64,000 nt of DNA from NCBI GenBank assembly GCA_017510405.1, contig JAFWNG010000040.1, forward strand, positions 62,001 to 126,000. The letters run 5' to 3'. Numbering within the stretch: position 1 is the stretch's first letter; every line of letters starts with the position of its first letter. Positions 5,711-58,345 of this stretch are shown piece by piece. This stretch comes from Solobacterium sp. Its GTDB lineage: Bacteria; Bacillota_I; Bacilli_A; Erysipelotrichales; Erysipelotrichaceae. The notes under the pieces were generated by a model, which made no database searches, was not told the origin of the DNA, and saw only the letters and a program-made list of their open reading frames with translations. The translations under genes were made by a program, and so were the position numbers.

Positions 5711-5813
5711 TTTTTATTATCTTCACGGCAAATAGTTTTCAGAAATAAGAGAATGGGAAGAATAAATGAGTTGGGACCTCAAACAGGTCTTATGTACAAA
5801 ACTGAGGTTGAAT

Positions 5814-7289
5814 ATGATTGATTTCAATATAAAAAAGAGAATTGAAGAAAAGAGTATTGTTCTGGAAGGACTGATACAGCAGTGTGATAAAGAAAAAAGT
5901 AAGTTGTTTTTGTTTAAAAATGACAAAAAAATCAGCGAACTGGAAAAACAAATTACTGCACTGGATAAAGAAATACAAGAGTTGGAAATAAAGTATAATG
6001 CCCAGCTTGAATTGAAAAAATCTACAGGCACTTCAATGAGCAACTTCGCTATATTTGCAAAGAAACATGGGCTGAAAACCTGCATTGGATGTGCTGCAGC
6101 ATTTATGACTTACTGTGGATATTTGTATTTTAAACCGATGAATATCAACGGTAATCAGATAACTTACCGTTCAATGATCGAATCCTATGAAGACAAAGTG
6201 ATCAATTCTGCTGATTATACTCCTGAAACGTATGAACGGTATATGAATGATTTAGAAGATGCCGAAGCACGTAAAAATGACATATTCATGAGTGATGAGG
6301 AAAAGTTAGCTTATGTTGATGCTTTACTATCGGCATATAACGGGTTGGAACCAATACCTGATAAAACAGCTTTATTATCTGCTTTGAACGAAGCAAATAA
6401 ATATGATATTTCTGCGTATACCCCCGTTTCTGCAGAAGTCTTTAAATCTGTCATTTCAGAAATGCGAGAGATCTATAATGATTCAAATGCAACCAGAAAA
6501 GAAGTGGCTGAAGCTGAGACCAGTATTGCTGCTGCTTATCGTAAATTGATTCTGAAAGCTGATAAAACAGGATTGGTTGAATTATATAACAAGTATTCCG
6601 GTTTTGCGCTCGATGATTATACGCCTTCATCCGTCAAAAGTTTTAATAAGGAAATTGAGAGTACAAAAAAACTGATCGATGACGAAAATGCATCGCAGAA
6701 TAACGTGGATAAACAGATCCAGACAATGCAGTCAGTTGAAACTCTTCTGGTCAAAAAGGCAGATACAACTTCTTTACAGAGTCTGATTGATGAGTGCAAT
6801 AGTTTGGATGGAAGTAAATACAAGGAAGGATATAGTGACCTGGTATCCGAAGTCAAATTAGTGACACCAATCCTTGCCAATGCTGACGTTACTCAGGAAG
6901 AAGTTGATTCGGCTGTTTCTCGTTTGCAAACAGCAAAAAGCAATATGGTCGAATATGTTATAAATCTGTACCGCATCAATATGAGAGCGGTAATGCAAAG
7001 TAATAACCATGTAGGTAATGACTGGAGTTATGCTCGTTATTATAACGGTGAATCTGTACATGATGGTTTCCAGGTTTCCGGTGAACCAGGCAGTTCTGTT
7101 TCAGTTGAAATGGAGATCACTGAAAGGGATAAGTCACCGGATTCAAATTCTGGAACAGCAACAATAACCTTAGAAAACGGATATCAGACTTCCTTCGATA
7201 TCACAGTAAGAGAAAACCGTGGACGATATTCCGGCAATACAGCAACATTTACTGTATATGTAACTGTGACTTACCTCGGAAGAGAATAA
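5814..7289 (+). CDS. Membrane-anchored FIVAR-repeat protein
   Basis: From the ATG at 5814, chosen because GAGGT lies 6 bases before it (the in-frame ATG at 5766 has no good site), this gives 491 residues. Residues 1-75 are a charged coiled coil. One membrane span follows at about 92-108, around CAAAFMTYCGYLYF. Three FIVAR-type helical modules come next, each beginning DKT/DTT-(A/G/S)-L. The last ~100 residues are a beta-rich domain with no name I know. FIVAR modules are usually found in cell-surface adhesins or wall-binding proteins, but there is no signal peptide or LPXTG motif here. Base composition is AT-rich compared with the flanks, suggesting acquisition. Role unknown. Confidence 0.65.
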   Translation: MIDFNIKKRIEEKSIVLEGLIQQCDKEKSKLFLFKNDKKISELEKQITALDKEIQELEIKYNAQLELKKSTGTSMSNFAIFAKKHGLKTCIGCAAAFMTYCGYLYFKPMNINGNQITYRSMIESYEDKVINSADYTPETYERYMNDLEDAEARKNDIFMSDEEKLAYVDALLSAYNGLEPIPDKTALLSALNEANKYDISAYTPVSAEVFKSVISEMREIYNDSNATRKEVAEAETSIAAAYRKLILKADKTGLVELYNKYSGFALDDYTPSSVKSFNKEIESTKKLIDDENASQNNVDKQIQTMQSVETLLVKKADTTSLQSLIDECNSLDGSKYKEGYSDLVSEVKLVTPILANADVTQEEVDSAVSRLQTAKSNMVEYVINLYRINMRAVMQSNNHVGNDWSYARYYNGESVHDGFQVSGEPGSSVSVEMEITERDKSPDSNSGTATITLENGYQTSFDITVRENRGRYSGNTATFTVYVTVTYLGRE

Positions 7290-7458
7290 GGTAAAACCAG
7301 ACTCAATCGCTCTTCGAAAAAACAGTATATTGGGAAAAGCAAGAGTAAGAGTGTAGGGATCGTTGTTCGACGGTCTGAAAAGAAGAGATTATAATTAGTG
7401 AAATTAGTACATCTATGTAATAGTTGATTATTTCACTTCAGGTATTACAGAAATAGAG

Positions 7459-7491
7459 GCAGTGAACGGAAAATCTAATTCACTGCTTTTA
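7459..7491 (+). terminator. Intrinsic terminator after the FIVAR gene
   Basis: GCAGTGAA / TTCACTGC forms an 8-bp stem followed by TTTTA, 170 bases past the stop. The rest of the 7290-7631 gap shows no further gene. Confidence 0.7.
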
Positions 7492-7631
7492 TGTTGGTTT
7501 CTTTTTGAATATACTCACTAATTCTAGGTTTTTTCCAGAAAGCTACCATTGTTAAAATCTTCTGAGTTTTTGTGACGGAGATTGCCAGAGACCGGTAATA
7601 GAATAATTGAGCAAGTTTTAGCATCTTCAGA

Positions 7632-7693
7632 ATGTACGGTATTTATCAAAAACCGTACATTGAAACGATAAAACCGTACATAGATGCTATACT
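7632..7693 (+). promoter_or_regulatory. Fic gene promoter with three copies of the word ACCGTACAT
   Basis: ATGTACGGT (7632-7640) and two copies of its complement ACCGTACAT (7652-7660, 7673-7681) lie just before a TATACT -10 box (7688-7693). The first two form an inverted pair and the last two are 21 bp apart, two helical turns. This looks like an operator for cooperative repression. The repressor is not encoded next to it. Confidence 0.6.
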
Positions 7694-7725
7694 GAGATTA
7701 AATGAAGATATCAGAGGTTACAGTA

Positions 7726-8460
7726 ATGGACGAAATAAGAGAAGATCCGTTTAAGGAGTATATCCAGGAAAAGGAACCGACAAAAAAGAAACTGGGATAT
7801 TCATGGTTTATTGCTATTGGATTGCAGAATGTTGATGGACTGCAGACTTCCGACTATCTGAACGCAACAGCACAATCCAATATCAACGGTGAGATTACTT
7901 TGGAAGATGCCAATCGAATGATCGAAACCTATTATGCAGAAAACTCAGATAGCAAAGCCGACAGTTATAAAGAAGCGGATCTTGTTTCCGCAAGAATAGC
8001 AGCAATACTTTCCGAGAATTCTTTTACGTTTTCTGTTCCTCAGTATATTGGTATTCATAAACGTTTATTTTCCGGTATTTATAAACACGCCGGAAAACTT
8101 CGGGACTATAACATTTCCAAAAAGGAGTGGGTACTGGATGGCGCTTCTGTCATTTACGGAAATGCTTTGGAATTGAAGGATATGCTGGAATATGACATTA
8201 ATTCAGAAAGGCATTTTAACTATGCTTTGTATGATATACCGGATATGATACCTCATCTTGCAGATTTTATATCCCGCCTGTGGCAGATCCATGCTTTTGC
8301 GGAAGGCAACACCAGAACAACAGCAGTGTTCTTATTGAAATATCTTCAAACGATGGGATTCGATGTGAATAATGATACATTTGCCAGGAATGCCTGGTAT
8401 TTCCGGAATATGGCACAAGTGATGATACAGAATGTAAAGCAAATACATTGGATATATTGA
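7726..8460 (+). CDS. Fic-domain protein, C-terminally shortened
   Basis: The start at 7726 is preferred over an ATG 24 bases upstream because AGAGG sits 8 bases before it; the result is 244 residues. The Fic active loop reads HAFAEGNTRT (residues 189-198) against the usual HPFxxGNGRxxR. The catalytic His and the GN are kept, but the final Arg is missing. Fic proteins transfer AMP or other nucleotide groups to proteins. The frame stops soon after ARNAWYFRN, where longer relatives continue for some 50 residues, and the last 15 residues do not look like the family, so a frameshift or deletion near 8410 is likely. Clustered operator words lie upstream. It may be inactive. Confidence 0.7.
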   Translation: MDEIREDPFKEYIQEKEPTKKKLGYSWFIAIGLQNVDGLQTSDYLNATAQSNINGEITLEDANRMIETYYAENSDSKADSYKEADLVSARIAAILSENSFTFSVPQYIGIHKRLFSGIYKHAGKLRDYNISKKEWVLDGASVIYGNALELKDMLEYDINSERHFNYALYDIPDMIPHLADFISRLWQIHAFAEGNTRTTAVFLLKYLQTMGFDVNNDTFARNAWYFRNMAQVMIQNVKQIHWIY

Positions 8461-8883
8461 GCAAGAGTGATCAGTCAATGTAAAAGAGACCGAATCGAAA
8501 AGGTGGTACGGGCACCCAGTGGTGTGTCAATCATGGAATTGAGTATTCCGTTGTGGCGGTGCCATCCAATCCGGACAATGGTACCACTGTGATTCCAGTG
8601 GTGGGACCCACCAATTTCGTAAATGGGTATTAGTAGAAAAAGAACTGAACAGATCTAAGTTAATGATATAATCGGCTCCGGATGAAGCATAAACAGCACC
8701 TTTGATACGATTCTGCTTGTATAGTAACCGCACCAACCGAAATGTGACAAACCCTTTATCTGTCACTTCCTAAGCTGATAATTATCCATTCGAATTTATG
8801 ATCTCTGTATCATCTTTGTGAATTCGGGTCTCTTTTTTTTGAACTATAGGTTTCCATCAGAATGCCCAAAATTCCATCTATGC
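8461..8883. other. Intergenic stretch without a supported gene
   Basis: No convincing gene was found on either strand. The stretch holds short repeated GGTGG and CCAGTGGTG words (around 8510-8610) and AT-rich sequence. It may include decayed sequence left from the end of the Fic gene. Confidence 0.4.
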
Positions 8884-9807
8884 TCAATCGATTTTCTGAA
8901 ACAATAAACCCCTTTCAATTTCTCGCTCAATATGTCGTTTGATATTATCAAATTCATCTTCGTATGTGAACAAATAGGAAGCTATATCATGTTCATCATA
9001 TATACGATCAGAAAACATCAAATAGTCGTGATTATTCCCGTTTTCAATTCCATACGTAGAGTCATTAAAAAGAGTGTAAGCATATTTATAATCTATCTCA
9101 TCTTCCAATAATTGCTTTATATCATACTCTGTTGGTGAAATAACTAGCATTCCCGAATAGTAGCAAAATACACCCGGAAAGACTTTGTAATATTCATTAT
9201 GTTGGATATTCATGACATCCTTATACTGAATGTGCAAAAAATATATTCCAAATATGCTCATAACTGAATCATTTTCGTTTATATTGAGATCAAGATCTTT
9301 AAATAGTAAAAGCTTATTTTTTGTTTGAATTGGATCCGTTGTTACCACATTTGCTATTTCACCTGTTTTAGCACCCGTTCTTTGTACAGTTATCATATTT
9401 ATTAGAATACTATTGTTAAGAGGAACTAAAACATTTAAAACCTCTGCATCATGAGAATCATCTGATATAGAATAGTTTCTCGAAACATAAGCGTCAAAAC
9501 AAGGTATTACATCTATCTTAAGTTCTAATAGCGCATTTCCGCTATTTGTAATTAATACACCATTTAAGTATTTAGAATTTTCTGTAAATGATCCAGTAAC
9601 ATTAATTATCGGTTTTGAAATATTCTCTTCAACTTTTAGCTGTCTTTTAGCGGTACTATTTGCGCACATAGAAAGAAAAACTGCAAATATAGATAAAATA
9701 ATCGAAAGCCAGCTTTTTATTTCAATAGTTTTTTTTGTTTTTTCAGACTTTTCGTTCTTCTCAGATTTTTTAGCCTCTAAATTATTATCAGTTTTGGGTT
9801 CTGACAT
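8884..9807 (-). CDS. Membrane-anchored protein of unknown function, AT-rich
   Basis: The 307-residue protein has a lysine/glutamate-rich cytoplasmic start (1-30), one membrane span at about 33-50 (SWLSIILSIFAVFLSMC), and a long domain outside the membrane core with alternating beta pattern. The orientation is typical of a signal anchor. AAGGAGG stands 6 bases before the ATG. Codon use is strongly AT-biased, unlike the TIR gene that follows on the opposite strand, so it may be recently acquired. I do not recognise the family. Its divergent position next to a TIR-PP2C protein leaves open a link to defence, without direct support. Confidence 0.6.
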   Translation of the reverse strand: MSEPKTDNNLEAKKSEKNEKSEKTKKTIEIKSWLSIILSIFAVFLSMCANSTAKRQLKVEENISKPIINVTGSFTENSKYLNGVLITNSGNALLELKIDVIPCFDAYVSRNYSISDDSHDAEVLNVLVPLNNSILINMITVQRTGAKTGEIANVVTTDPIQTKNKLLLFKDLDLNINENDSVMSIFGIYFLHIQYKDVMNIQHNEYYKVFPGVFCYYSGMLVISPTEYDIKQLLEDEIDYKYAYTLFNDSTYGIENGNNHDYLMFSDRIYDEHDIASYLFTYEDEFDNIKRHIEREIERGLLFQKID

Positions 9808-10072
9808 AGAAGCCTCCTTTCCTTCTTTTTTTTAAGTTATATGAACCATCAAAGTTGCGCACTGAAGGTTATCGTAATTGTTCAGCAGGGTTTTAAAACT
9901 TAACTTCAGTATAACATTTCCTTTCTTCATGCATGTAGTAAAACTCCGGTTAGTCGCTGAATCATAACTTGTGACAATCTCCTTTTACATAGCCATAAGG
10001 TCATGTGGAAAGGAGAATTTTCTATTCCAATCAGATATATAATGTTCATAGATTTGATATGGAGGCATACCT

Positions 10073-12418
10073 ATGGCAATCTTTATCAGTTACAGTACTG
10101 CAGATGAGAAGTATGCAGAACAGTTAAATCAGATATTAACAGCGAATCACTATGAGACGTGGTTTGCACCAAAGAATATTGGAAGCAGTGAAAGTTTCTC
10201 GGTAAAGATTGGGAAGGAACTGACAGCGCATAAATCAGAAGATGAAATGACAAGGATACTGGAAGATGCGGATCATCTGAAGATATCGAACTTCTTTATA
10301 CTGCTGCTGTCGGGAAACTCCATGAAATCCAAGTGGGTGGCGAAGGAAGTGACGATGGCTGCCAGCAACGATATACCGATGCTGGTGCTGAAAATCGACC
10401 ATTCTGTGATCACTCCTGCTTTTGAATTCCTGCTTTCGGACTGCCAGTATGTGGAAGCGTACCGGCTGAATACGGCGGTCATTCAGACGATTCTGGAAAA
10501 ACTGGAAGAAGAGATGCCGATGGACCGGGAAACAGTACAGGAACAGCTGAAGAAACACCGGTATACCTACGAAGAGATCGGAATCGAATCCATTGCGTCC
10601 GGAGATCCGTACTTTACCGAAGGAGAAACACTTAAGATCACACTGGGAAAAGATGTGTTCTATCTGGCGCCTCCGGCAGAGTGTCTGGAAGAGGAAGAAG
10701 TACAGGAATATCTGAAAGATCACACGTTCCAGATGACAGACACCGTCTTTGATACGACATTGCAGGAGATCTGCAGCCGTATCGAAGTGGATCACCTGTA
10801 CGAAATGATCGAAGAAAGCAGAAGAAAAATCTTCCTGCAGTTCCTCCACCAGGAGAATGGGTGCTACTTCAATAATCATAAGTACGGTATCAGTAAGATC
10901 TCACGGTTTGAACGTACAGAGACGATGGCGGAACTGCCGGTGCTCCGCATAGAAATGTTTGAGACGGACTACTTCACACACCGTGTCATGAAGGATGTGT
11001 GTAAAACACTGGCGAAGACGAATCGCAGATTCATACGTTCTCTGGACTTCAACAGGATCAATGATACGAAGATCCTGTTCACGTCACTGGGTGTGAATCT
11101 GATCCTGAGCGACAGTGAACGGAATATACTGCTGACAAGCCGCAGCACGAATGCGGCAGAGACATATAAGCGCCACAGTTATTCGCTTTCTGTGGTCGAA
11201 GGCGTATCCATCAGTGACTACGATACATTCAACCGGACAGTAAATGTGCGGTATACGGCATTGCGCGGGCTCCAGGAAGAACTGGGAGTAGATGAATCAT
11301 ATCTGAAACTGGATTCACTGAAGTTCTATGATCTGTTTGTCAATCCGATGAATCTGGAGATGGGATTATCGTGTTCGGTTGAAGTAAAGAAAGAATATCA
11401 TCTGGAGCAGGATATCATTCCTCTGCACGGGAAAGATGAACAGCTGGAAGTCTCTTCCAAGACGATCATCGACAGCAGGAATCTGGAACAGTTCATCTAT
11501 AACAATGAAGCTGCGCTGATGCCGCAGTCGCTGTATACACTGTGCGTGTATATGGAAGCACAGGGCGTATTCATGCTGAACAGGATGCGCAGGTCACTGA
11601 TCCGGGATATGACGTCAGTCATTGCCAAAGACGGCTCACATGGTCCGTGCGGCGATACGTATGTGTGGAGTGATCATTATATTGCTGTGATCGACGGAGC
11701 GACGCCGAAGGGAGAAATGCTTTGGGACGGTCAGAAAGGGGATGTCTATGTATCCCATCTGGCCGCAGATGCCATAGTAAATATGAACCCGGACTTCTCT
11801 GCGGAAGAGGCAATATCCTATATCAACCAGGTCATCCGCAGTGAATATACGAAGCGCGGTATTGACTTCAAGGCACTGATGCCGGCAGAGCGCCTGCAGT
11901 GTTCGCTGCTTCTGTACAGTGTGAATAAGCATGAGATCTGGAGCTTCGGCGACTGCATGCTTCGAATCAACCAGAGAGACTTCGTAAATCTCAAGGAAGG
12001 CGATCAGCTGCTGGCGTCACTGCGTGCCTTCTGCATCCAGATCGAACGCGACCGCAGAGGCAAAGACGTCACAGAGCAGGAATTATCCGACTTTGGCAGA
12101 CAGATGATCCTGCCGTATCTGAAGGAATACATATCACTGGCAAACCGGAAGGTACCGTTTGGATACGATGTACTGGACGGCGGCGATATCATTCCTTCCC
12201 ATGTAAAGATCTACTCCGTACAGAAGGACGATACTGTCGTTATGGCATCGGACGGGTATCCAAGACTCTTCGATACATTTGAAGAGACTGAAGAGTACCT
12301 GAAAAAAGCACTGGAACTGGATCCCACCTGTATCGATCTTTTACGCGGTACAAAGGGAATCGACAAAGGAAATGAAAGCTACGACGACCGTACTTACGTA
12401 TCGTTCGTCGTAGCCTGA
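10073..12418 (+). CDS. TIR / degenerate-Nudix-like / PP2C phosphatase fusion
   Basis: The 781-residue protein has three parts. Residues 1-~125 are a TIR domain: FISYSTADEKYAEQL, then WFAPKNI, and WVAKEVTMAA with a Glu at 92 where NAD-cleaving TIRs have the catalytic Glu. The central part (~150-510) includes RGLQEELGV (about 398-406), which matches the end of a Nudix box but lacks its earlier Gly and Glu, so it would bind rather than hydrolyse if truly Nudix-like. Residues ~513-781 read as a PP2C phosphatase: VIDGATPK, FGDCML, MASDGYPRLF and a final DDRTYVSF keep the metal-binding Asps. GGAGG precedes the ATG. A decayed copy of the PP2C end lies at 13279-13363. A defence role (NAD depletion controlled by nucleotide sensing or dephosphorylation) is inference. 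Confidence 0.75.
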   Translation: MAIFISYSTADEKYAEQLNQILTANHYETWFAPKNIGSSESFSVKIGKELTAHKSEDEMTRILEDADHLKISNFFILLLSGNSMKSKWVAKEVTMAASNDIPMLVLKIDHSVITPAFEFLLSDCQYVEAYRLNTAVIQTILEKLEEEMPMDRETVQEQLKKHRYTYEEIGIESIASGDPYFTEGETLKITLGKDVFYLAPPAECLEEEEVQEYLKDHTFQMTDTVFDTTLQEICSRIEVDHLYEMIEESRRKIFLQFLHQENGCYFNNHKYGISKISRFERTETMAELPVLRIEMFETDYFTHRVMKDVCKTLAKTNRRFIRSLDFNRINDTKILFTSLGVNLILSDSERNILLTSRSTNAAETYKRHSYSLSVVEGVSISDYDTFNRTVNVRYTALRGLQEELGVDESYLKLDSLKFYDLFVNPMNLEMGLSCSVEVKKEYHLEQDIIPLHGKDEQLEVSSKTIIDSRNLEQFIYNNEAALMPQSLYTLCVYMEAQGVFMLNRMRRSLIRDMTSVIAKDGSHGPCGDTYVWSDHYIAVIDGATPKGEMLWDGQKGDVYVSHLAADAIVNMNPDFSAEEAISYINQVIRSEYTKRGIDFKALMPAERLQCSLLLYSVNKHEIWSFGDCMLRINQRDFVNLKEGDQLLASLRAFCIQIERDRRGKDVTEQELSDFGRQMILPYLKEYISLANRKVPFGYDVLDGGDIIPSHVKIYSVQKDDTVVMASDGYPRLFDTFEETEEYLKKALELDPTCIDLLRGTKGIDKGNESYDDRTYVSFVVA

Positions 12419-12466
12419 TACACTTAATAATCCACCAGACAGATGGAAAGACTCACTTTGCGGAAG

Positions 12467-12487
12467 CCCTGCATCTGTTATGCAGGG
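12467..12487. terminator. Hairpin between convergent genes
   Basis: CCCTGCAT / ATGCAGGG forms an 8-bp stem between the ends of the TIR-PP2C gene and the lipoprotein gene. No T run follows on either side, so it is only a weak terminator candidate. Confidence 0.4.
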
Positions 12488-12503
12488 TCGGAATGATCAG
12501 ATA

Positions 12504-13172
12504 TCATTCACTGATTTCAATGTTATATTTCTTGATTGTAACGGTGACCGTTCCGTCATTAAGCAGGTCTTTCTTTACAGAAATAATACCGCGTGCCTGA
12601 TACTTCTGATCAGAAGGCTGATATTCATATTCCTCCTGTCTTTCGCAGCCGGAACTCGTCGCGATCGATACAAGCAGCGGATCCTGCATGACGGCAGATA
12701 TCATCCAGGGTTCACCGGTCTTTCGGAAGGCTGCCATTCCATTCGCTCTGTAGGTCGTATTCCCTGCCAGGATATCTTCGGCAAGGAACGTCCAGTAGTC
12801 TGTATCCGCAAAAGAACCGGTATACTGATAATCCACCGTATAATACACGAACCGGAAATCTTCACCGGCAGGCACATTCCCGCTGTCTGATTTCGTAAGG
12901 AAACTGTCATCCGGTGTGCCTGAAACAGCATCCGCGAAGCCGGCATCCGTAATGGTGAAGACGAAATCATCCGCAGTGATCGTATCGCCAACGTGATAAA
13001 CCTGATCTCTCGGGGAAATCTCCGAAGCGGGGGATGGTTCTGTTTCCTGTGAAGGTTTTTCTTCTTTCTCTGATTTGGCAGATGAACCGGATCCTGCTGA
13101 TGAACTGCATCCGGCCAGTGAGGCTGTCAGGAAGACTGACAGGAGTAATTTGAATGACTTCTTCTGTGACAT
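12504..13172 (-). CDS. Lipoprotein of unknown function
   Basis: The start at 13172 is set by AGGAG about 10 bases upstream; the frame is open further but without a site. The 222-residue product begins MSQKKSFKLLLSVFLTASL and continues to a lipobox LAGC, then a Ser/Glu/Pro linker and a beta-rich domain of about 160 residues resembling DUF4352/DUF5067-type extracellular domains (YHVGDTITADDFVFTITDAG is the typical opening). It should be lipid-anchored on the outer face of the membrane. It lies between two TIR genes, convergent with the first; there is no sequence reason to tie it to them. Confidence 0.8.
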   Translation of the reverse strand: MSQKKSFKLLLSVFLTASLAGCSSSAGSGSSAKSEKEEKPSQETEPSPASEISPRDQVYHVGDTITADDFVFTITDAGFADAVSGTPDDSFLTKSDSGNVPAGEDFRFVYYTVDYQYTGSFADTDYWTFLAEDILAGNTTYRANGMAAFRKTGEPWMISAVMQDPLLVSIATSSGCERQEEYEYQPSDQKYQARGIISVKKDLLNDGTVTVTIKKYNIEISE

Positions 13173-13278
13173 ATATAGGATCTCCTGTTCTTTATCTTTT
13201 TCAGTTAATATTGTAAGCCTCAGAAGACATTCTCTCAAGAATGTATCGCAGGTTCCGGGAAAACGGTACGCTCTTATC

Positions 13279-13363
13279 AAAGCACTGGAACCGGACCACC
13301 TGTATCGATCTGCTGCACGGTGCGAAGGGAATCGGCAGGGAAATGAAAGCTGCGACGACAGCG
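13279..13363 (+). pseudogene. Remnant of a second TIR-PP2C C-terminus
   Basis: This stretch aligns base by base with 12305-12390 in the TIR-PP2C gene: AAGCACTGGAAC, CACCTGTATCGATCT, AAGGGAATCG and GGAAATGAAAGCT occur in the same order and spacing. The reading frame is disturbed, and no start or upstream domain remains. It is a decayed duplicate lying upstream of the 13433 gene. Confidence 0.8.
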
Positions 13364-13432
13364 TAAATATCTCCCCTGGAAGAGGCATTCAGACGGTCTT
13401 GTATATACTATTCACAGGGAGGAACAAACAGT

Positions 13433-13855
13433 ATGAATAACAAAACAGCAGAACAGATGAATGAAGAACTCAAAAAGGAACTCTGGGAGATCTACAGAAG
13501 AAGACTTGCTCTGGATGCTTTCCTGGCACAGCCCTTTGATCTGCAGAACGATAACGAAGACTATCGTATGAACCTGCGTGATACTTTGCGGGAACTGTAC
13601 AGAGGCCTGAAAAATGCCTGCGATCCGGAAGAATATAAGAAATGGAAAGAGAAATTCTTCGATTATTACGCGATGCACTGCGATGCGAAAGAGTGGACGA
13701 CATACCGTTATGAAATCGCAGAGAATCCCTGTTCCATGACGGTTCCGACAGAACTGTGCAGATCCGCAGAGAATAACTTCGATGTCCTGAAGATCGACTG
13801 GGAAGCAAGCACAGCGACCGAGGATGAAGTCCGCGCTGTTCTGACGGCGGAATGA
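13433..13855 (+). CDS. Hypothetical helical protein (140 residues)
   Basis: The product is rich in charged helices (NEELKKELWEIYRRRLALDA, LRDTLRELYRGLKNACDPEE) with no signal or membrane span. A GGGAGG site precedes the ATG. It follows the PP2C remnant directly and ends before a terminator. I do not recognise the family. Given its place between two TIR genes it could be a partner of either, but nothing in the sequence shows this. Confidence 0.6.
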   Translation: MNNKTAEQMNEELKKELWEIYRRRLALDAFLAQPFDLQNDNEDYRMNLRDTLRELYRGLKNACDPEEYKKWKEKFFDYYAMHCDAKEWTTYRYEIAENPCSMTVPTELCRSAENNFDVLKIDWEASTATEDEVRAVLTAE

Positions 13856-13932
13856 CGTTCCTGTATCACAAGCGGAAACAAACATATAATTGACGCAAGG
13901 CACGGAGAATACCAATGACTGTATTGCAGTAC

Positions 13933-13978
13933 AAGACACGCGGCATTCCCTGGGGGATGGCATTCCACGTGTCTTTTT
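13933..13978 (+). terminator. Terminator-like hairpin after the 13433 gene
   Basis: AAGACACG / CGTGTCTT arms surround a GC-rich loop holding GGCATTCC twice, followed by TTTTTC. Confidence 0.6.
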
Positions 13979-14037
13979 CTGTTGTCATCCGGATGATGAT
14001 CTCACCGACTGTACTTATACCGTACTAAAAAGGCAGA

Positions 14038-16506
14038 TCACTCTGCCTTCGTGGATAAGCTGATCAGGTTTTTCAGCCGGGGAGAATCTTCAGAAAAGAT
14101 CTTATATCCGGTGTTCAGTGCGGTTTGTCTGGCTTCTTCTGCCTGTTCTGTAAGACCAAGCCTGGCACAGCAGGATACCTTCAGTACAAGCTGATCAAAA
14201 TAGGAAAGATTGGATTCATTATAGAACTGCAGATAGGCGGAAAGATTGAGGTCGATCTCCGCAAGTGCTTCTCTGTACTTACCCTCGGCATACAGGATCT
14301 TTGCACGGCGTGAGGTGGCACGCAGGATATCCGGATTTCGTTCACCCCATGTTGCTGCGCCGCGCTGAACAAGAAGATCATATGCTTCATCTACCAGTGC
14401 TTTGGCCTTCGCATAGTCCTGCATTGTCATGCAGATGTCTGCGTAACGCAGAAGACTGCCGGCACAGCGGAATCTGGTTTCGGGATCTGTGAAATGTGCG
14501 CGGGCATATTCTACTGCGCTTTCTGCATATTCCTTCGCACGTGCAAAATCTTCCGGATCTGAGGAGGTATCATAGCGCATGGAATAATACTTGGAGATAT
14601 TTTCCTGCAGACCGCCATATGTGACACAGGCATTGTAATCTGACGGATCGATCTTTCTGTAAAGCCGAAGAGCACGCATCAGCCACTCTTCTGCACGGTC
14701 CATGGCGTTTTCCACGGACGGATTGAACAGCAGAGTCCAGCCGATGCCGTAGCAGAGACTTGCTGTATCCAGTGCGTATTCACCAATTGTATCCAGATAA
14801 TACCGGTAGATCTCTTCACTGAGACGGACGGATTTCTCTGCCTGTCCCGCAAAACCGTAAATATTTCTTGCGGAACGGCATAATGCGACCGTATCCTCAC
14901 TGACCGGACCGACGGCAGAAAGAATGCTTTCCAGGATCATGCTGTACTGCTCTTTCTGTGCCTGCGTCAGGAACCAGGAAACTTTCAGATCCTCTGCGGC
15001 GTTGTCAAGAAATGAGCGGATCTCACTGGCATGGACAGGCAGCTGGTACTGGATGACTTTGCGGACGACCGGATGAAGCGTGATACCGCCGGCATTGCGC
15101 ATGATCCAGCCGCGCATTTCCAGGCGATGCAGTATACGCGTGTCTTTCAGGTCTGCCCACTTTTTGAACTTCATTGCCGGAATACCGCATAAGGGGATCA
15201 GAGACAGAAGCTTCAGAACAGCCTGTTCCTCGCTGCTGAGGGAAAAGACTTTGAACATGCGTACGAGGTTTTCATACGCGGTATCCGCAGACGCACCGGA
15301 CACATGTACTGTTTCATTCAGGGAAGTGATTCCTTCTGTCTGCAGTGCATCGATCATTTGCCGGACGTTCTGTCCGCTGTTTTCCATGTGATGTGCCAGT
15401 AATATGACGGTGTAGGTATGACAATTGACCAGACGGATCAGAGCAGGCAGATCCGGATCATCCGGTTCTACGTCAAATCCCTGGTAATTCTGCGTAAAGA
15501 CTGTGATGAGATCGTTCATATCTTCGATCTCTTTTACCGGTATCGCTGTATATTCACGGGAACAGTTGATCCGTGTTGTCGCAAGGATCTGCCATGGTCC
15601 ATCCAGGATACGGGGCAGGTCCGGATCCTGCAGGTTATCCAGATTATCCAGGATAAGAAGTGTCTGCGGTGTTGCGGTACGGCGCAGTTCCTGCAGCTTG
15701 CGTTCAAAGTATGATCCATCTTCTTCCGGTGCCGTATCGATGATCTTTCGAGGAAGCGGCGGACGCAGTTCAAAGGGCTGTTCCGCAATGACAAGATCAC
15801 GAAGGGAATTCTCACATACGGCGTGAATGATCACATCATATTCATTTCTGTGCGCCAGAGCATACTGGAGGGCGATCTCTGTTTTTCCGATACCGCCGAT
15901 ACCGTAGAGGAATACTGCCTTTCTTCCGGCACGGTACTTCTGTTCGATCTCATCCAGAATGTTCTGTCTGCCGCAGAAATAAGGCTTTACCGGCAGATAA
16001 CCGGAAGACAGCAGATGTCTGTTCTGTGTTTGCTGGCTTGCTTCTCTGGCTGCAGAACTGCCGATGCGTTCTATGATCTGCTCGACCAGTTTTGACAAAT
16101 CGGTAATATTGCGTACATCAATGGCCTGACGGTCATTCATATCGACCCACCACAGTACCTTATCCTCCGGTATATCCCGGTTATCGATCTGATCCATCAT
16201 GACGATATAGAGGGGACGGTCATAGTGGCTGGCAGCGATCGTATATTCTTTTTTTACGAAGGAATCTTTCTTTGGAAGAATTCCGCGCGTAAAAAACAGG
16301 ATCACACCCTTTGCACTGCGGATCTTCTCCGCAATAGTCTTCTCCCACAGATCACCGGCTTCGATTCCCCGGTCATACCACAGGTGAAAACCATTGTCAC
16401 GAAGCGCACGTGCGATCGCAGCGACTCTGTCAGTATCTTCTGAGTTGTAACTGATGAAATAATAATCCGCGTCTTCCGTCGGAATAAAACCGAAATCATT
16501 TGCCAT
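14038..16506 (-). CDS. TIR / NB-ARC (STAND) / TPR protein, bacterial NLR-like
   Basis: The 822-residue protein has an N-terminal TIR domain (YYFISYNSEDTDRVAAIARA at 15-34; FVKKEYTIAA with Glu87 in the catalytic position). An NB-ARC type ATPase follows: Walker A YGIGGIGKTE at 201-210, Walker B TLLILDNLDN at about 282-291, sensor ATTR at 309-312, then a winged helix. From about 480 on there are TPR-like helical repeats. This is the layout of prokaryotic NLR-type sensors: the repeats recognise a trigger, the ATPase oligomerises, and TIR cleaves NAD to stop growth. Those roles are family knowledge. All key motifs look intact. A GGGGGA site precedes the ATG. Its trigger is unknown. Confidence 0.9.
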   Translation of the reverse strand: MANDFGFIPTEDADYYFISYNSEDTDRVAAIARALRDNGFHLWYDRGIEAGDLWEKTIAEKIRSAKGVILFFTRGILPKKDSFVKKEYTIAASHYDRPLYIVMMDQIDNRDIPEDKVLWWVDMNDRQAIDVRNITDLSKLVEQIIERIGSSAAREASQQTQNRHLLSSGYLPVKPYFCGRQNILDEIEQKYRAGRKAVFLYGIGGIGKTEIALQYALAHRNEYDVIIHAVCENSLRDLVIAEQPFELRPPLPRKIIDTAPEEDGSYFERKLQELRRTATPQTLLILDNLDNLQDPDLPRILDGPWQILATTRINCSREYTAIPVKEIEDMNDLITVFTQNYQGFDVEPDDPDLPALIRLVNCHTYTVILLAHHMENSGQNVRQMIDALQTEGITSLNETVHVSGASADTAYENLVRMFKVFSLSSEEQAVLKLLSLIPLCGIPAMKFKKWADLKDTRILHRLEMRGWIMRNAGGITLHPVVRKVIQYQLPVHASEIRSFLDNAAEDLKVSWFLTQAQKEQYSMILESILSAVGPVSEDTVALCRSARNIYGFAGQAEKSVRLSEEIYRYYLDTIGEYALDTASLCYGIGWTLLFNPSVENAMDRAEEWLMRALRLYRKIDPSDYNACVTYGGLQENISKYYSMRYDTSSDPEDFARAKEYAESAVEYARAHFTDPETRFRCAGSLLRYADICMTMQDYAKAKALVDEAYDLLVQRGAATWGERNPDILRATSRRAKILYAEGKYREALAEIDLNLSAYLQFYNESNLSYFDQLVLKVSCCARLGLTEQAEEARQTALNTGYKIFSEDSPRLKNLISLSTKAE

Positions 16507-16642
16507 ACTTCCCCCTGTGAATGAATATGTCTGTCATTACAGACATTTTACTGCATACTTGTTTTACAGGAATACAGGAAACATAGACAAACATCCATTT
16601 CTCTAATATGATTCCTAGGTGCGACACAAGGAGAAACAGAAT

Positions 16643-17506
16643 ATGAAAGTAGCAGTTACATATGATAACGGAAATGTATTCCAGCACTTTGGAAGAACAG
16701 AGTCCTTCAAGGTATATGAAGTGGAAAATAAAGAGATCGTATCCTCGAAAGTGGTATCTTCCAACGGACAGGGACACGGCGCTCTGGCAGGAGTACTGGG
16801 CGGATACGATGTGGATGTGCTGATCTGCGGCGGAATCGGCGGCGGTGCAAGAGCTGCGCTGGCTTCCTGCGGCATCGAAGTATGCGCAGGTGCTTCCGGT
16901 GATGCGGACGAAGCAGTAAAGGCATATCTGAACGGCACCCTGGTACCGTCGGATGAGACATGCGATCACCACGATCATCACGAAGACGGCGGATGCTGCG
17001 GACATCATGACCATGAGGAAGATCATGAGTGCTGCGGACACCATGATGACGGGAACTGCTGCTGCGGCAATGAAGCGGCAGGAAAGAATATCGGCAAGAC
17101 TGTTAAAGTACACTACCGCGGTACATTCAATGACGGCACACAGTTTGATTCCTCGTATGACAGAGGCAAAACACTGGACTTCGTATGCGGCGCGCACATG
17201 ATGATCCAGGGATTTGACGCGGCAGTTGCCAATATGGAAGTCGGTGAATCTGTGGATATCCACCTGATGCCGGAAGAAGCTTACGGCATGCCGGATCCGC
17301 GTCTGATCTTCCAGGTACCGTTAGCACAGCTGCCGGGCTCTGAACAGCTGGAGACAGGCATGCGTGTATATCTGGAAAACGAAATGGGCCAGCAGTTCGG
17401 CGTGACCGTCGTCGGAAAAGATGATGCGATGATCACATTCGACGGCAACCACGAGATGGCAGGCAAGGAGCTCAACTTCCACATCGAACTGATCGAAGTG
17501 CTCTGA
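16643..17506 (+). CDS. NifX/NifB-type domain fused through a His/Cys-rich linker to SlyD-like FKBP prolyl isomerase
   Basis: AGGAGA before the ATG at 16643 sets the start (287 residues). Residues 1-100 are a dinitrogenase-cofactor (NifX/NafY) type fold: MKVAVTYDNGNVFQHFGRTE, then ICGGIGGGARAAL. Residues 107-141 hold a metal-binding stretch with about eight Cys and more than ten His (CDHHDHHEDGGCCGHHDHEE...). Residues 150-287 are an FKBP/SlyD isomerase (VKVHYRGTFNDGTQFDSSYD, MIQGFDAAVANMEVGE, PEEAYGMPDPRLI). SlyD helps nickel insertion and normally carries its metal tail at the C-terminus; here the metal stretch is internal. A metallochaperone role is a reasonable inference; the metal is unknown. 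Confidence 0.85.
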   Translation: MKVAVTYDNGNVFQHFGRTESFKVYEVENKEIVSSKVVSSNGQGHGALAGVLGGYDVDVLICGGIGGGARAALASCGIEVCAGASGDADEAVKAYLNGTLVPSDETCDHHDHHEDGGCCGHHDHEEDHECCGHHDDGNCCCGNEAAGKNIGKTVKVHYRGTFNDGTQFDSSYDRGKTLDFVCGAHMMIQGFDAAVANMEVGESVDIHLMPEEAYGMPDPRLIFQVPLAQLPGSEQLETGMRVYLENEMGQQFGVTVVGKDDAMITFDGNHEMAGKELNFHIELIEVL

Positions 17507-48039: not shown

Positions 48040-48293
48040 TATTCAATTCCTTATAGGAAAGCGTGGACTAATCCTAGTGATTGTACTGATTATAAGTATG
48101 TTCAGCAACCTGTTTCAATTCCTTATAGGAAAGCGTGGACTGGAAGTGGTGAGAGTCCACTACTACGCTTTGGGCCCAAACAAGAGGTTTCAATTCCTTA
48201 TAGGAAAGCGTGGACACGAATACACCATCTACGAAGACGAGCGTGAGGTCCTCGGCGAGGGCTGGTTTCAATTCCTTATAGGAAAGCGTGGAC
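48040..48293 (-). CRISPR. Three-spacer CRISPR array, transcribed from the minus strand
   Basis: Four 29-base repeats at 48040-48068, 48112-48140, 48187-48215 and 48265-48293; spacers of 43, 46 and 49 bases. In the plus sense the repeat is GTTTCAATTCCTTATAGG plus AAAGCGTGGAC. On the minus strand it ends in ATTGAAAC, the standard 8-base crRNA handle, after a TTCCT-ATA-AGGAA hairpin suited to Cas6. The leftmost repeat differs at its two minus-strand 3' bases, as expected at the leader-distal end. A promoter on the right side supports the same direction. Long spacers are usual for type III. Confidence 0.95.
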
Positions 48294-48320
48294 TAAGGTA
48301 AAAAGCTTACCTTTAAGAAC

Positions 48321-48737: not shown

Positions 48738-50258
48738 ATGGACAGGTATCTCGCAATCATTGAGGTGTCTCAGAAACAGCGGTTTATTTTTTCTTCGAAT
48801 AAGCTGTCACAGAATATTGGGGCATCGATCATCATCCGTGAAATAACGGAGATGATTCCCAGAAAACACTGTACGGACGAAGAAGTTTTCTTCGTTGGCG
48901 GCGGTAAGTCCGTTTATGAATTTGACTCGGAAGAGCGGGCAAAAGAGTTCATTTCATGTGTCAGCGAAGAGGCAATTGAACAGTATCCGGGTGTGGAAGT
49001 CTTTATGGCTTTGCAGAAATACGAAGCAGAGAAAGAAAGAGTGCTGGATGCAGTAAACAAACTGTATTCCAATCTTGAGAAAAAGAAGAGCATCCGGAAA
49101 AGCAGTTTTGTCATCCAGAGTATGGGCATCACACAGCTGAGTGAGAACACAAATAAACCGGTCATTGTCGGGACAGACGGGTTGTCTGCGGAAGAATTTG
49201 CGAAAGAAAAGGCCGCCCGTAGCAAACGCCAGAAAGCAGCGTATGCGGATCTTCTTCCGGAAGATGAAAAATACGAGTTTGCCATGGAATTTGAAGATCT
49301 TGGCGGAACGAAGCACACCAAGAGTTATATCGGTGTTATTGCTCTGGACGGAAACCGGATGGACAAGAAGTTTACGCATTTCCGAAATGCATATGAAAAG
49401 AGATATGAAAAGGCGTCTGCGGCAGATGACATATATGCATTGAACTGTGAGTATAAAAAAGCATACAGAAATCTGAGTGAAACCATTGAACGGGTCTACC
49501 GTCTTGCCGTCAGGGCGACCAATACAGAAATTGCATCACGGCTGGATGAAATGTATGAAAACAAGAAACTGACAAAGAATAAGAAAGACGGAAAAGTGAT
49601 ACTTCCGTTCCGGCCTCTGATCGCGGCCGGCGACGATATCTGCATCGTGACCGACGGAAGAATTGCTCTGCTGTATACAGAGATCCTGCTGAACAACATA
49701 AAAACGATCGGTGACCGGGAACTTGCGCAGATACCGGGCTTCCGGTTTGAAATGCGCGCCTGTGCAGGCATCACGCTGATTTCGGGACACTATCCGTTCT
49801 TCCGGGCACATGAACTGGCGGAAGAACTTGCTTCGAACGCAAAGAAACAGCTGCCGGACGATGACGCTTCAGATACGTGCGTTATGGACTTCCATATCGT
49901 GCAGGGAGAGATCGAAGGATCTCTGTCAGAGATTCGGAAGACGAAATACGATTCTTCCCGGATGACCGCAAAGCCGTACTTCATCGAATTCCCCAGTACA
50001 TTTAACGAAAAGCAGAAGAATGAGGCGCATACGCTGGAACAGCTCAAAGCGTGTATTCGCTATCTGAAAAAAGCAGATGTCGGCAGAGGAATACTGAAAG
50101 AGTACAGAGATGCATTGACCAGTGGTGAACAGGCAATGCGGGCATATCTGAATGAGAAGAGAATGACGAAGATCCTCGGCAAATACGAAAGAGGACTTGC
50201 ATTCGACGCAATTGAAACGATGGATATCTATTACGGCGTGGAGGATATACGGAAATGA
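48738..50258 (+). CDS. cas10: Cas10 of type III-D, without HD domain, AGDD cyclase motif
   Basis: The 506-residue protein has two palm-like halves: FFVGGGKSVYEF (about 51-62), then YIGVIALDGNRMDK (197-210) and PLIAAGDDICIVTDG (293-307). The last is the cyclase GGDD motif with the first Gly changed to Ala; both Asps are kept, so cyclic oligoadenylate synthesis is likely. There is no N-terminal HD nuclease (no HD motif in the first 150 residues), which shortens it compared with the usual 700-900. So target DNA cutting is not expected and signalling should be the main output. GGGGGAG precedes the ATG. It overlaps the next gene by 4 bases. Confidence 0.85.
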   Translation: MDRYLAIIEVSQKQRFIFSSNKLSQNIGASIIIREITEMIPRKHCTDEEVFFVGGGKSVYEFDSEERAKEFISCVSEEAIEQYPGVEVFMALQKYEAEKERVLDAVNKLYSNLEKKKSIRKSSFVIQSMGITQLSENTNKPVIVGTDGLSAEEFAKEKAARSKRQKAAYADLLPEDEKYEFAMEFEDLGGTKHTKSYIGVIALDGNRMDKKFTHFRNAYEKRYEKASAADDIYALNCEYKKAYRNLSETIERVYRLAVRATNTEIASRLDEMYENKKLTKNKKDGKVILPFRPLIAAGDDICIVTDGRIALLYTEILLNNIKTIGDRELAQIPGFRFEMRACAGITLISGHYPFFRAHELAEELASNAKKQLPDDDASDTCVMDFHIVQGEIEGSLSEIRKTKYDSSRMTAKPYFIEFPSTFNEKQKNEAHTLEQLKACIRYLKKADVGRGILKEYRDALTSGEQAMRAYLNEKRMTKILGKYERGLAFDAIETMDIYYGVEDIRK

Positions 50259-50920
50259 GAGAATATCAGATCTCCATAGAATTACTGTCAGATACAATGC
50301 CCGGAAGCGGTGAATCTGTTCCGGGTACGATCGACAGTGATATTCGTTACGATTCCTATGGAATACCCTATATGAACGCAAAAACACTGAAAGGACATCT
50401 CCGGGAACAGATGGAGATGATCACAGCGTATGCCGCAGATATGAAAGACTATCCGGTCCGTGAACTGCTTGGTTCCTCTGATAAGGAGGCTGAAAAGAAA
50501 CAGGGACGTCTGAAATTTACCGATGTCACGCTGGGCAGAGGGATCCGCTCAGCGATACAGAATGCGATCGATACAGCTGAGCAGGATGCACGTGCGCACA
50601 AAAAAGAAAATACGATCGTGACAGCGAACGATATTATCAACGCACTGACGCTGACCGCTTCGTATACCAGCATCGAACGGAAAACAGGTATCGTAAAAGC
50701 ACATTCCTTACGCAGAGAACGGATCCTGCAGAAAGGGCTCACGTTATATTCGACGCTGTATTTCGATACAGATGGAATGATGGAAGAAGAAATCAACAGA
50801 GCAGAGACACTGCTGGATATGTCTGTGCGTGCCATCCAGCATATCGGAACACATAAATCAAAAGGAATGGGACATGTGCGCTGCCGTCTGAAGTCAGCCG
50901 GGGAGGAACAGAACGTATGA
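50255..50920 (+). CDS. Cas7 (Csm3-like) backbone RAMP, single domain
   Basis: The 221-residue protein has the Cas7-type opening with GSGES (about 17-21), then GTIDSDIRYDSYGIPYMNAK, where the Asp before the GxPY segment (27 or 29) is in the position of the RNA-cutting Asp of Csm3. The Gly-rich loop HIGTHKSKGMGHVR (about 195-208) binds crRNA. It should coat the guide and may cut target RNA at 6-base steps. ATGA overlaps on both sides show tight coupling. Confidence 0.8.
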   Translation: MREYQISIELLSDTMPGSGESVPGTIDSDIRYDSYGIPYMNAKTLKGHLREQMEMITAYAADMKDYPVRELLGSSDKEAEKKQGRLKFTDVTLGRGIRSAIQNAIDTAEQDARAHKKENTIVTANDIINALTLTASYTSIERKTGIVKAHSLRRERILQKGLTLYSTLYFDTDGMMEEEINRAETLLDMSVRAIQHIGTHKSKGMGHVRCRLKSAGEEQNV

Positions 50921-52530
50921 CGTTATATATCCGTTATCAGCTCAGTCTGAATGAACCGGTGCGCATGGGAATGGCCGGAAATCAGGAAGGAACAGCAGCG
51001 ATGCCGTACATCGCCGGTTCCTCGGTCCGTGGTGCGCTTATAGGCCAATATATCCGGGAGTACTATCCGGAACGTACGGATGATCTCAGTAAAGATGCGG
51101 CTGTACGGAAGGAATTATTTACCGGTACACGCTTTACGGATGCGTATCTCCACGCGGAGGGAAGAGATCTGATTCCTGTTCCAAATGTCTACTATGTGGA
51201 TAAGCACAGAAAACGTGAGGCAGAGAAGAAGAAAGCAGACCGTTTCCCGGTACATTCCTGTATCCGTGATATTCCTGCGGAAGGCGAACAGAGGCAGGGA
51301 GCCGGCGGTTTCTGCCTTCTGAATGGAAATGAATTCACTGTTATACCGGTACGGAAATGCGCAAATCTGCATATCGGGACCGAAGAGAAAACGATGTTCC
51401 GCTATGAAGCAATTGACCGGGACCAGATCTTTACCGGTTATATACAGTGTGAGAATGACATGATCAAAGACCGGTGGATGAAAGTGCTGGATAACTGCGT
51501 CCTCTATGTCGGCGGCTCGAAAGGCAGCGGATATGGACGCTGTCATATCCAATGCGGCGAAGTCTGTTCGTATGACCGTATGCTGGAACAGTACGGAATC
51601 AAACGGAAGCCGCAGAAAAACACGTTTACCGTATATGCCTTATCACGGCTGGCGCTTCTGGATCCGTCCGGCAGCCCGGCAGGAGAGATCGATACCGGGT
51701 ATCTGGAAGAAATGCTGGGCGTACGAAATGTGCGTCTGGAACAGGCATCGGTATCTTCCGAGATCGTTACTTCGTTCAATCATACATGGAAAGCAGGGCA
51801 GGTCCTGCAGAGTACGGTTTCCCCGGGCACGCATTATCTCTATTCCTGTGAGGGAGAGGTCAGTGCGGACGCAGCCCGGAAGCTGGAAGAACGCGGCGTA
51901 GGAATGCGTAAAGAAGAGGGATTCGGACGAATTCTGATCAATGCGGACTTCTCACAGAACATGTGCGCAGTATATGAAGCCGGAAAAACAGTCACAAAGA
52001 GAGAACCGATGACGGCAGAAGAGGAAGCGCTGTACCATCTCATTCAGCAGCGTGTCAACCGGCGCAGGATCCTGACCCGGATCAATACCGCAGCCATGGA
52101 CTGCATGGAACATTCTCCGAAACTTGCCAGAACAGTGAGCCGGACGCAGATCAGCGGTCTGTATTCCGCATTGGAAAAAGCACTGCTCTGCAGTGATGAC
52201 CGACAGGGAATTCGGATCCTGAATACTTACATGCGTTCCCTGAAAATGGAGGATAATGAGGAACGGTTTAAGAATAAAAATGTTGAACAGACTTACACAC
52301 AGCCGGTCTTCAATATTGCATATCAGAACTATTCACTTCAGCAGCTGATCACCAGTGTCTGCTCTGACAAAGACCGCTACAGTCAGTGGGATTCCGGAAT
52401 CGCTTCACTGCCTCTGTGGCAGGATTCGAAAAAAGAAGATAATACACTGTCGGAATTCCGTAAGAAAGCAGTCTATTTATCCGATATCCTGTATACACTT
52501 CTCCGGAAAGAAGGAGGGAAAAAGGCATGA
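50917..52530 (+). CDS. csx10: Csx10-type RAMP (Cas5-like), type III-D marker
   Basis: The 537-residue protein opens with IRYQLSLNEPVRMG, followed by MPYIAGSSVRGALIGQYI, a pattern of Csx10. Two glycine loops are visible: YVGGSKGSGYGRCHI (about 197-211) and VGMRKEEGFGRILI (about 327-340), so it has two RAMP-like folds plus a helical C-terminus. In III-D it holds the 5' handle of the crRNA in the place of Cas5/Csm4. Its stop overlaps the next start. Confidence 0.8.
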   Translation: MTLYIRYQLSLNEPVRMGMAGNQEGTAAMPYIAGSSVRGALIGQYIREYYPERTDDLSKDAAVRKELFTGTRFTDAYLHAEGRDLIPVPNVYYVDKHRKREAEKKKADRFPVHSCIRDIPAEGEQRQGAGGFCLLNGNEFTVIPVRKCANLHIGTEEKTMFRYEAIDRDQIFTGYIQCENDMIKDRWMKVLDNCVLYVGGSKGSGYGRCHIQCGEVCSYDRMLEQYGIKRKPQKNTFTVYALSRLALLDPSGSPAGEIDTGYLEEMLGVRNVRLEQASVSSEIVTSFNHTWKAGQVLQSTVSPGTHYLYSCEGEVSADAARKLEERGVGMRKEEGFGRILINADFSQNMCAVYEAGKTVTKREPMTAEEEALYHLIQQRVNRRRILTRINTAAMDCMEHSPKLARTVSRTQISGLYSALEKALLCSDDRQGIRILNTYMRSLKMEDNEERFKNKNVEQTYTQPVFNIAYQNYSLQQLITSVCSDKDRYSQWDSGIASLPLWQDSKKEDNTLSEFRKKAVYLSDILYTLLRKEGGKKA

Positions 52531-53813
52531 TGTACCCATTCGTCTTTTATGGAAGAATTCATATGACTTCCGTCAGTATCCTTCATATCGGCGGTGATTC
52601 CGAAGAGAATTTTGAACTGGCAGTAAACGGCGACAGGCAGTTCATCATTCCGGCTTCCGGTCTTGTGGGATGTATCCGGCATTATCTGGAATCAGAGAAT
52701 AAAACAGCCGCGAATAGTTTCTTCGGCGACCAGGATCATATCGGCAGGGCATATGTATATGACGCAGTCCTGAATCAGTATTCCGGTCTTGAAACAAGAA
52801 ACGGTATTGAGATCGACCGGAAATACGGTACTGCCAAAAAGGGAAAACTCTATACAAGATACTATCTTGCGGAAGGAACGAAGACCTGCATCGAGATGAA
52901 AGTCTACTGCAGGTCCCGGGAAGAGTTCAAAAACCTGTTCTGTAAGATCGCTGACGGGATCGAAGCAGGAGGCATTGCTTTCGGCGCAAACCGTTCAAAC
53001 GGCGCCGGCTGCTTCAAAGTGGATTCCGCGGAATACCGGATCCTGGATCTGCAGAAAGCAGAGGATCTGGAAACATATCTGGCAGATGATCCGAAATGGA
53101 AAGGCAGTTCCTATACTCCTGTCTCAGCATCCCCGTCCCTGAACAATACATTTGTACTGGAAGCGGAAATACCAAACGGACTTCTGGTCAAAGACGGTGA
53201 GAAGCACCGCGGCATCAACAGTATGAATATCGTACGGATCGTGAACGGCAAAGAACAGGCGTACATTCCGGGCACGACGATCAAGGGACTCATGAAAGCA
53301 CAGGCAGACCGGATCCTGAAATACTACGGATGGGAGCCGTCTCTGCTGGCATCGATCTTTGGAAGTGATCCGCAGGGGACGCCGACAAAAGGACATGTTT
53401 TTGTGAGCGATGTTGATATTACATCTGCCTGTAAAAGAATCTATACCCGCAATAAGATCGACCGTCTGAAGGGTTCCGGCATCAACGGCGGTCTGATCAT
53501 GGAGGAAGTACTGTCCACAAAAGAAGGAAAGACGATATCCATCGCTGTCCGGATCGATCCGTATATGGAACCGGAACTGCAGAGGATCGCCCGCATCCTT
53601 GTTTATCTGGCATTACGGGACCTTGGCGCAGGCTACCTTTCCATCGGAAGCGGAAATAACGTCGGTTACGGACGGCTGCGCGGAACGAAGCTTTCCGTCG
53701 GCGAACAGGTCTGCACATTCAAATACAATGAAGACCAGGTCAGTATCGACATTCCAAACGGTCTGAAGGAAGAACTGGAACAGGATATTAATATCCTCCG
53801 GGGAGGCAAATAA
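52527..53813 (+). CDS. Tandem Cas7-Cas7 (Csm3-like) fusion
   Basis: The 428-residue protein carries two RAMP domains. The first has IIPASGLVGCIRHYLES and loop FGANRSNGAGCF (about 151-162); the second has YIPGTTIKGLMKAQADRIL, FVSDVDI and SIGSGNNVGYGRLRG (about 371-385). In the second half the segment INSMNIVRIVNGKEQAYIPG has Asn where Csm3 has its catalytic Asp, and the first half has no Asp at that site either, so one or both may not cut RNA. Fused Cas7 units are a known III-D/III-E trend. Overlaps csx10. Confidence 0.78.
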   Translation: MMYPFVFYGRIHMTSVSILHIGGDSEENFELAVNGDRQFIIPASGLVGCIRHYLESENKTAANSFFGDQDHIGRAYVYDAVLNQYSGLETRNGIEIDRKYGTAKKGKLYTRYYLAEGTKTCIEMKVYCRSREEFKNLFCKIADGIEAGGIAFGANRSNGAGCFKVDSAEYRILDLQKAEDLETYLADDPKWKGSSYTPVSASPSLNNTFVLEAEIPNGLLVKDGEKHRGINSMNIVRIVNGKEQAYIPGTTIKGLMKAQADRILKYYGWEPSLLASIFGSDPQGTPTKGHVFVSDVDITSACKRIYTRNKIDRLKGSGINGGLIMEEVLSTKEGKTISIAVRIDPYMEPELQRIARILVYLALRDLGAGYLSIGSGNNVGYGRLRGTKLSVGEQVCTFKYNEDQVSIDIPNGLKEELEQDINILRGGK

Positions 53814-53814
53814 A

Positions 53815-54204
53815 ATGAAACAGGTGTCAGTTAAGATCGAAGATGCACTCAATACGGAATACCTCTCTCAGGAGGGATATCAGTACGCATGGATCATGTC
53901 GGTCGGTTCTGTGGTGCTGAAGCCGGTCGAAGCAGTCATTTTCCCAGATCCGGATGAAATACTTGAAGCACGTATATTCACAAAGCAGAAAGAACTGCAT
54001 CTGTTCCGGTATGAAGAGGAACTGAAGTGCATCTGCACAATTACAGAAGATACCGATACTCTGTATACCGAAGAAGAACAGAAGCTGAGAAAACGCTTTG
54101 GGAAAAGCATTGTTCTGCGTCGCTTTATTACGCATGACGAAGACGGACTGGCGTATTTTGGAACGACCGTTCTTTGCGGCGCGGATCTTGGAGGTGAAAA
54201 ATGA
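53815..54204 (+). CDS. Csx19-like type III-D accessory protein
   Basis: The 129-residue protein has YAWIMSVGSVVLKPVEAVIF, EARIFTKQKELHLFRYEEEL and RRFITHDEDGLAYFGTTVLCG. The order of an EAR(L/I)F...LxLxR strand and a final DexGLxY strand matches what I recall of Csx19 (TIGR03984), found only in III-D loci. It is shorter than usual. It could bind the complex as a small subunit substitute, since no Cas11 is visible. It overlaps the next gene by 4 bases. Confidence 0.6.
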   Translation: MKQVSVKIEDALNTEYLSQEGYQYAWIMSVGSVVLKPVEAVIFPDPDEILEARIFTKQKELHLFRYEEELKCICTITEDTDTLYTEEEQKLRKRFGKSIVLRRFITHDEDGLAYFGTTVLCGADLGGEK

Positions 54205-56438: not shown

Positions 56439-56447
56439 GCACTGCAT

Positions 56448-58337: not shown

Positions 58338-58345
58338 AGAATGCA

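Follow-up and report, generated by a model that had tools for sequence, protein, structure and literature searches.

A single-chain TIR–Nudix-like–PP2C protein of Solobacterium and its relatives encoded as separate genes

In the gut bacterium Solobacterium sp., a protein of 781 amino acids encoded in a single frame combines a TIR domain, a central Nudix-like domain and a PP2C phosphatase domain. This fusion may be the single-chain form of a modular conflict system centred on PP2C, probably one acting against phages or mobile elements, in which TIR would serve as the effector, the Nudix-like domain as the sensor and PP2C as the regulator. The reading is favored tentatively and falls somewhat short of probable. 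That the fusion is functional is argued mainly from PP2C domains of the same family, which recurrently pair with nucleotide-handling partners. Defence-type surroundings lend it further support, namely a TIR-NB-ARC-TPR gene, a Fic gene matching PDC-S72 and a genome-wide total of about 20 TIR domains. Counted against it are the occurrence of the triple fusion in two species only, a stand-alone homologue of the Nudix-like part (L021) that lacks a PP2C neighbour, the absence from PADLOC of a model covering the Nudix or PP2C parts, and the fact that most members of the PP2C family have no TIR or Nudix partner.

In the proposed mechanism, a clustered TIR effector would cleave NAD+. The Nudix-like domain, no longer hydrolysing its substrate, would bind a nucleoside-diphosphate ligand resembling a UDP-sugar or ADP-ribose and, with this ligand bound, would report the state of the cell. 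PP2C would set the on or off state by dephosphorylating its own chain or a partner, or would act in the manner of SpoIIE and RsbU, and any kinase would act in trans. In SpoIIE and RsbU the PP2C domain is C-terminal and under the control of a sensor domain. The fusion likewise places its putative sensor N-terminal to a C-terminal PP2C but differs from these proteins in having an N-terminal TIR domain and another type of sensor. Ligand or protein sensing is the usual gate of TIR effectors, and control of an NADase by a phosphatase in the same chain would be new. On the broader reading of a system spanning phyla, given below as possible rather than probable, the fusion would also be the first case of a TIR effector under the control of a phosphatase fused to it and a dead Nudix sensor. 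An initial reading of the sequence alone knew of no described system with this domain order, and none appeared in Pfam, NCBIfam, PADLOC or the available text of the literature searched, a statement confined to these sources. TIR, Nudix and PP2C all appear in a survey of conflict systems published in eLife in 2020 (PMC7159879), each separately in the available text.

The fusion gene and its TIR domain

The window, which is the whole stretch of 64,000 nucleotides that was analysed, contains the complete open reading frame at 10073..12418 (ATG at 10073, stop at 12418), and this frame and all of its features given below are on the + strand. The order of TIR, Nudix-like and PP2C domains proposed by the sequence-only reading held up, with TIR identified by Pfam, PP2C by a structural model and the Nudix-like part through homology. 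TIR is the sole domain that Pfam recognises in the window protein. It occupies residues 1-135 (10073..10477), and the Pfam models TIR_2 (E 3.5e-12) and ThsB_TIR (1.3e-8), both over the curated cut-off, span residues 3-130. The conserved Glu attributed to this domain is indeed present as Glu92 (codon at 10346..10348), a catalytic-type residue within the motif WVAKE according to the alignment, and the equivalent Glu is kept in the ortholog described below (L031) and in two TIR genes that are paired with PP2C genes (L023 and L048). TIR is the likely effector, with a predicted NADase activity. It is followed by a linker at residues 136-190 (10478..10642) that is partly helical in a low-confidence model (low pLDDT).

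A second Solobacterium metagenome-assembled genome carries a full-length ortholog (L031/L030) with the same 781-residue frame and 83% identity, with the same NifX-FKBP gene next to it. Comparison of the two genes gave a dN/dS of 0.095 overall. Since the value is 0.08-0.11 in each of the TIR, Nudix-like and PP2C parts, all three domains are, on this sequence comparison, under purifying selection. The 83% identical ortholog with its shared frame, together with these ratios, also led to rejection of an assembly artefact or gene decay as the origin of the fusion. Neither evidence for a lack of the Nudix fold in the central region nor homologues lacking the TIR Glu or the PP2C metal-binding Asp residues were encountered. 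Annotated plasmid relatives contained no additional TIR or PP2C fusion. Viral sequences were scanned with three queries, the fusion protein, the PP2C alignment and an alignment of the two-transmembrane (2TM) Nudix family described below, and no relatives were found with any of them, leaving carriage of these genes by phages unsupported; a piece of PP2C is present in one short phage record.

The central Nudix-like domain and the two-transmembrane Nudix family

Residues 191-505 (10643..11587) form a NUDT22-type Nudix-like domain with an N-terminal extension, an assignment based on the homologue L021, a profile match and the model of a related family. The sequence-only reading had described a degenerate Nudix box, and a remnant was found as RGLQEELGV at residues 398-406 (11264..11290). 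The canonical box GX5EX7REUXEEXGU is reduced to this stretch, without the upstream G and E and with RE changed to RG, such that Gly399 replaces the first Glu of the helix while Glu402 and Glu403 are kept. The same Gly is found in L031 and in L021, a stand-alone homologue of the Nudix-like part with 30% identity and an N-terminal TM-like helix.

The relatives that connect this region to a known fold belong to a family of Nudix proteins with two transmembrane helices (L024, L045, L049, L052, L084, L112, L113 and L114). Comparison of the window's Nudix-like part with this family by hhalign gave a P of 6e-4, whereas controls with unrelated or reversed families scored 0.21-0.57; the link relies on these two kinds of control, as column-shuffled controls gave no hit line. 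The two align collinearly, and it is profile-profile comparison alone that links them, since plain hmmsearch gave no match of the 2TM-Nudix profile to the window protein or in the reverse direction. The central region appears to be a distant homologue of the 2TM-Nudix family. The fold model of this region, built with almost no relatives aligned there, has a pLDDT of about 25-50, and the Nudix fold is therefore assigned through homology.

For the 2TM-Nudix family, human NUDT22 (PDB 5lf9, 5r50) is the best structural match. A search of the PDB with the family profile matched NUDT22 only, at a marginal E of 0.07-0.17, and the absence of other folds from these structure searches carries no evidential weight. 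A model of the soluble part of L045, with a mean pLDDT of 52 and a better core, retrieved six NUDT22 chains with Foldseek at 6e-9 to 6e-8, followed by other Nudix proteins, and superimposed on NUDT22 with a Z of 14.7 and an rmsd of 3.2 over 162 aligned residues. Two Glu residues four positions apart in the helix (E-x3-E), which we take to be catalytic in NUDT22, are both kept in L045, L049, L052 and L084, whereas the window protein has Gly399 and Glu403 at these positions. Because Gly399 stands where the 2TM family keeps Glu, the window's Nudix-like domain is probably a non-hydrolysing relative. Neither a TIR nor a PP2C domain is fused to NUDT22 itself.

The sequence-only reading took the central domain for a reader of ADP-ribose-like products, a view that the nearest fold does not favor. 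NUDT22 turns UDP-glucose into glucose-1-phosphate and UMP (PMC10101856), and since the nearest fold is that of a UDP-glucose hydrolase, a nucleotide-sugar ligand would be at least as likely as ADP-ribose. This relationship also bears on the possibility that the fusion functions in housekeeping or envelope-stress signalling unrelated to phage, in which TIR and PP2C would be coupled to a sensor of nucleotide sugars. Consistent with such a role, 2TM-Nudix genes adjoin what was judged by eye to be a Gfo/Idh-like oxidoreductase gene in five loci, directly following it in L133, L135 and L138 and also, on the other strand, in L134 and L137. Such signalling is nevertheless unlikely, as both the patchy distribution (8 of 315 genomes of the order) and the TIR partners are untypical of housekeeping. 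The 2TM-Nudix genes of L133-L138, most of which have the oxidoreductase neighbour, are without PP2C.

The PP2C family and its partners

The PP2C domain spans residues 508-781 (11594..12415) and is defined by a model, by fold matches and by its relatives, which number at least 488. In a first full-length fold model the Nudix and TIR helper rows were misaligned into PP2C, and only the PP2C part of that model was used; its region of about 512-780 is a PP2C fold with pLDDT mostly >90. This model matches PstP, tPphA and RsbX (Foldseek 7e-8), with Z values of 16.6-17.6, the alignment with 1txo by VIA-align having a Z of 17.6 and an rmsd of 4.5 over 193 residues, and the PP2C of SpoIIE is also among the fold matches. 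The metal-binding Asp residues, said by the sequence-only reading to be intact, are the same in all 54 members of the alignment, these being Asp528 (11654..11656), Asp541 in IDG (11693..11695), Asp627 in GDC (11951..11953), Asp727 in SDGYP (12251..12253) and Asp771-Asp772 in DDR (12383..12388). Just before Asp528, at a position generally taken by Glu, four of the 54 aligned sequences have Gly, including the window protein. The domain is predicted to be catalytically active. While the fold and the metal Asp residues are common to PstP, tPphA, RsbX and the window protein, the latter differs in having further invariants specific to its family (K519, R651, D673, N691 and DGYP in the 54 members), no linked kinase and no recognition as PP2C by Pfam.

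Homologues of residues 510-780 occur in at least 488 places in a species-level collection of public genomes, from which 80 loci were taken. The family is thus large, and it is mostly missed by Pfam, whose PP2C_2 model matches few members and those weakly; together with the bacterial relatives of NUDT22, it is what this analysis has uncovered. A paralogue with 59% identity is present in the same genome, and other relatives are scattered within the order. The spread over phyla is patchy, which suggests horizontal transfer. The family extends beyond defence, because most of its members lack a TIR or Nudix partner and some adjoin housekeeping-type genes or are fused to GDPD.

Because the parts of the fusion exist elsewhere as separate operon genes, the system appears to be modular and wider than the window protein. 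The PP2C gene directly adjoins a 2TM-Nudix gene in six loci (L024, L045, L049, L052, L084 and L113) and overlaps a TPR-TIR gene in two (L023 and L048); the first kind of pair is found for instance in Planococcus, the second in Lachnoclostridium. In five further loci (L054, L062, L085, L093 and L109) the partner, whose gene overlaps that of PP2C, is an uncharacterised small protein with a GCHTYGT-type motif. All of these small proteins except the short L085 fragment have an N-terminal TM-like helix, and some contain GGPKNN. It is possible rather than probable that these arrangements represent an undescribed immune or stress-signalling system spanning phyla, in which the PP2C family is constant and nucleotide-handling partners are swapped (the 2TM NUDT22-like Nudix, TPR-TIR, or a TM protein bearing a GGPKNN/GCHTYGT domain). 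Its single-chain form would then be the window protein. The conserved gene pairs allow direct testing in laboratory strains.

A further partner is found in five Bacteroides-type loci (L102, L104, L105, L107 and L108), where PP2C is fused to a GDPD domain with an apparent signal peptide. These fusions suggest small-molecule substrates for the family and so lend something to the idea of a metabolite-processing chain, in which TIR would make an ADP-ribose-type product, the Nudix-like domain would hold or trim it and PP2C would dephosphorylate a small molecule rather than a protein. The family's own invariants beside the metal Asp residues and the lack of kinase neighbours in the loci examined agree with this idea as well. 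It is distinctly unlikely, however, as one Glu of the helix pair is missing from the fused Nudix-like domain, making a hydrolytic middle step improbable, and as PP2C folds are mostly protein phosphatases.

The sequence-only reading had instead suggested a switch in which PP2C opposes a dedicated Ser/Thr kinase. An intact PP2C implies phosphorylated substrates, and four Pkinase-domain matches occur elsewhere in the genome. A conserved kinase neighbour was nonetheless sought in vain, as a narrow search for the catalytic-loop motif (H-x-D-x-x-P-x-N type) gave no open reading frame in the loci examined and Pfam found no kinase among the immediate neighbours of the window gene, which makes such a switch very improbable.

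Known defence systems and the genomic surroundings

The ThsB_TIR match raises the possibility of Thoeris-like signalling, in which TIR would make cyclic ADP-ribose for a separate effector while the other domains regulate, but this is highly unlikely given that neither Pfam nor PADLOC found a ThsA-type gene among the neighbours within 5766-17506 and that the PADLOC ThsB matches are weak and partial. The fusion shares a TIR domain with ThsB and differs from it in its additional Nudix-like and PP2C domains. A comparison can also be made with Cap16 of CBASS, which consists of TM and NUDIX parts (PMC10419184). The operonic relatives of the window protein likewise combine TM helices and Nudix, whereas the window protein has TIR in place of TM helices ahead of Nudix. 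Neither the scanned window neighbours nor the Nudix relatives had a Pfam or PADLOC match to the CD-NTase-associated NUDIX, and no CD-NTase was seen in the subset of genes scanned beside the 2TM-Nudix relatives.

As for the surroundings on which the conflict-system reading draws, the TIR-NB-ARC-TPR gene lies at 14038-16506 of the window, and the G004 locus lacks it between the fusion gene and the gene for NifX-FKBP. The Fic protein (7702-8460) matches the candidate defence family PADLOC PDC-S72 (E 1.9e-114) and is encoded in a stretch of low GC at 5.5-10.3 kb, a composition that suggests recent import. The approximately 20 TIR_2 domains over cut-off in the source genome (3.27 Mb) include eight on one contig (C15), and genomes of the same genus mostly have 0-5, with 47 in one of them (G015).

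Other features of the region were noted as well. A tubulin-like gene (PF13809) lies at 616-1602 of the window. In another part of the genome, a protein that combines a tubulin-like part, identified by eye, with TIR is encoded near a PP2C paralogue (L028, 7176-8258). A CRISPR-like array of four 34-nt repeats (48040-48298) is located upstream of RAMP-domain genes and a further TIR protein (48738-59995, with the TIR protein at 58346-59995), and this region resembles a type III CRISPR locus that has TIR as its effector.
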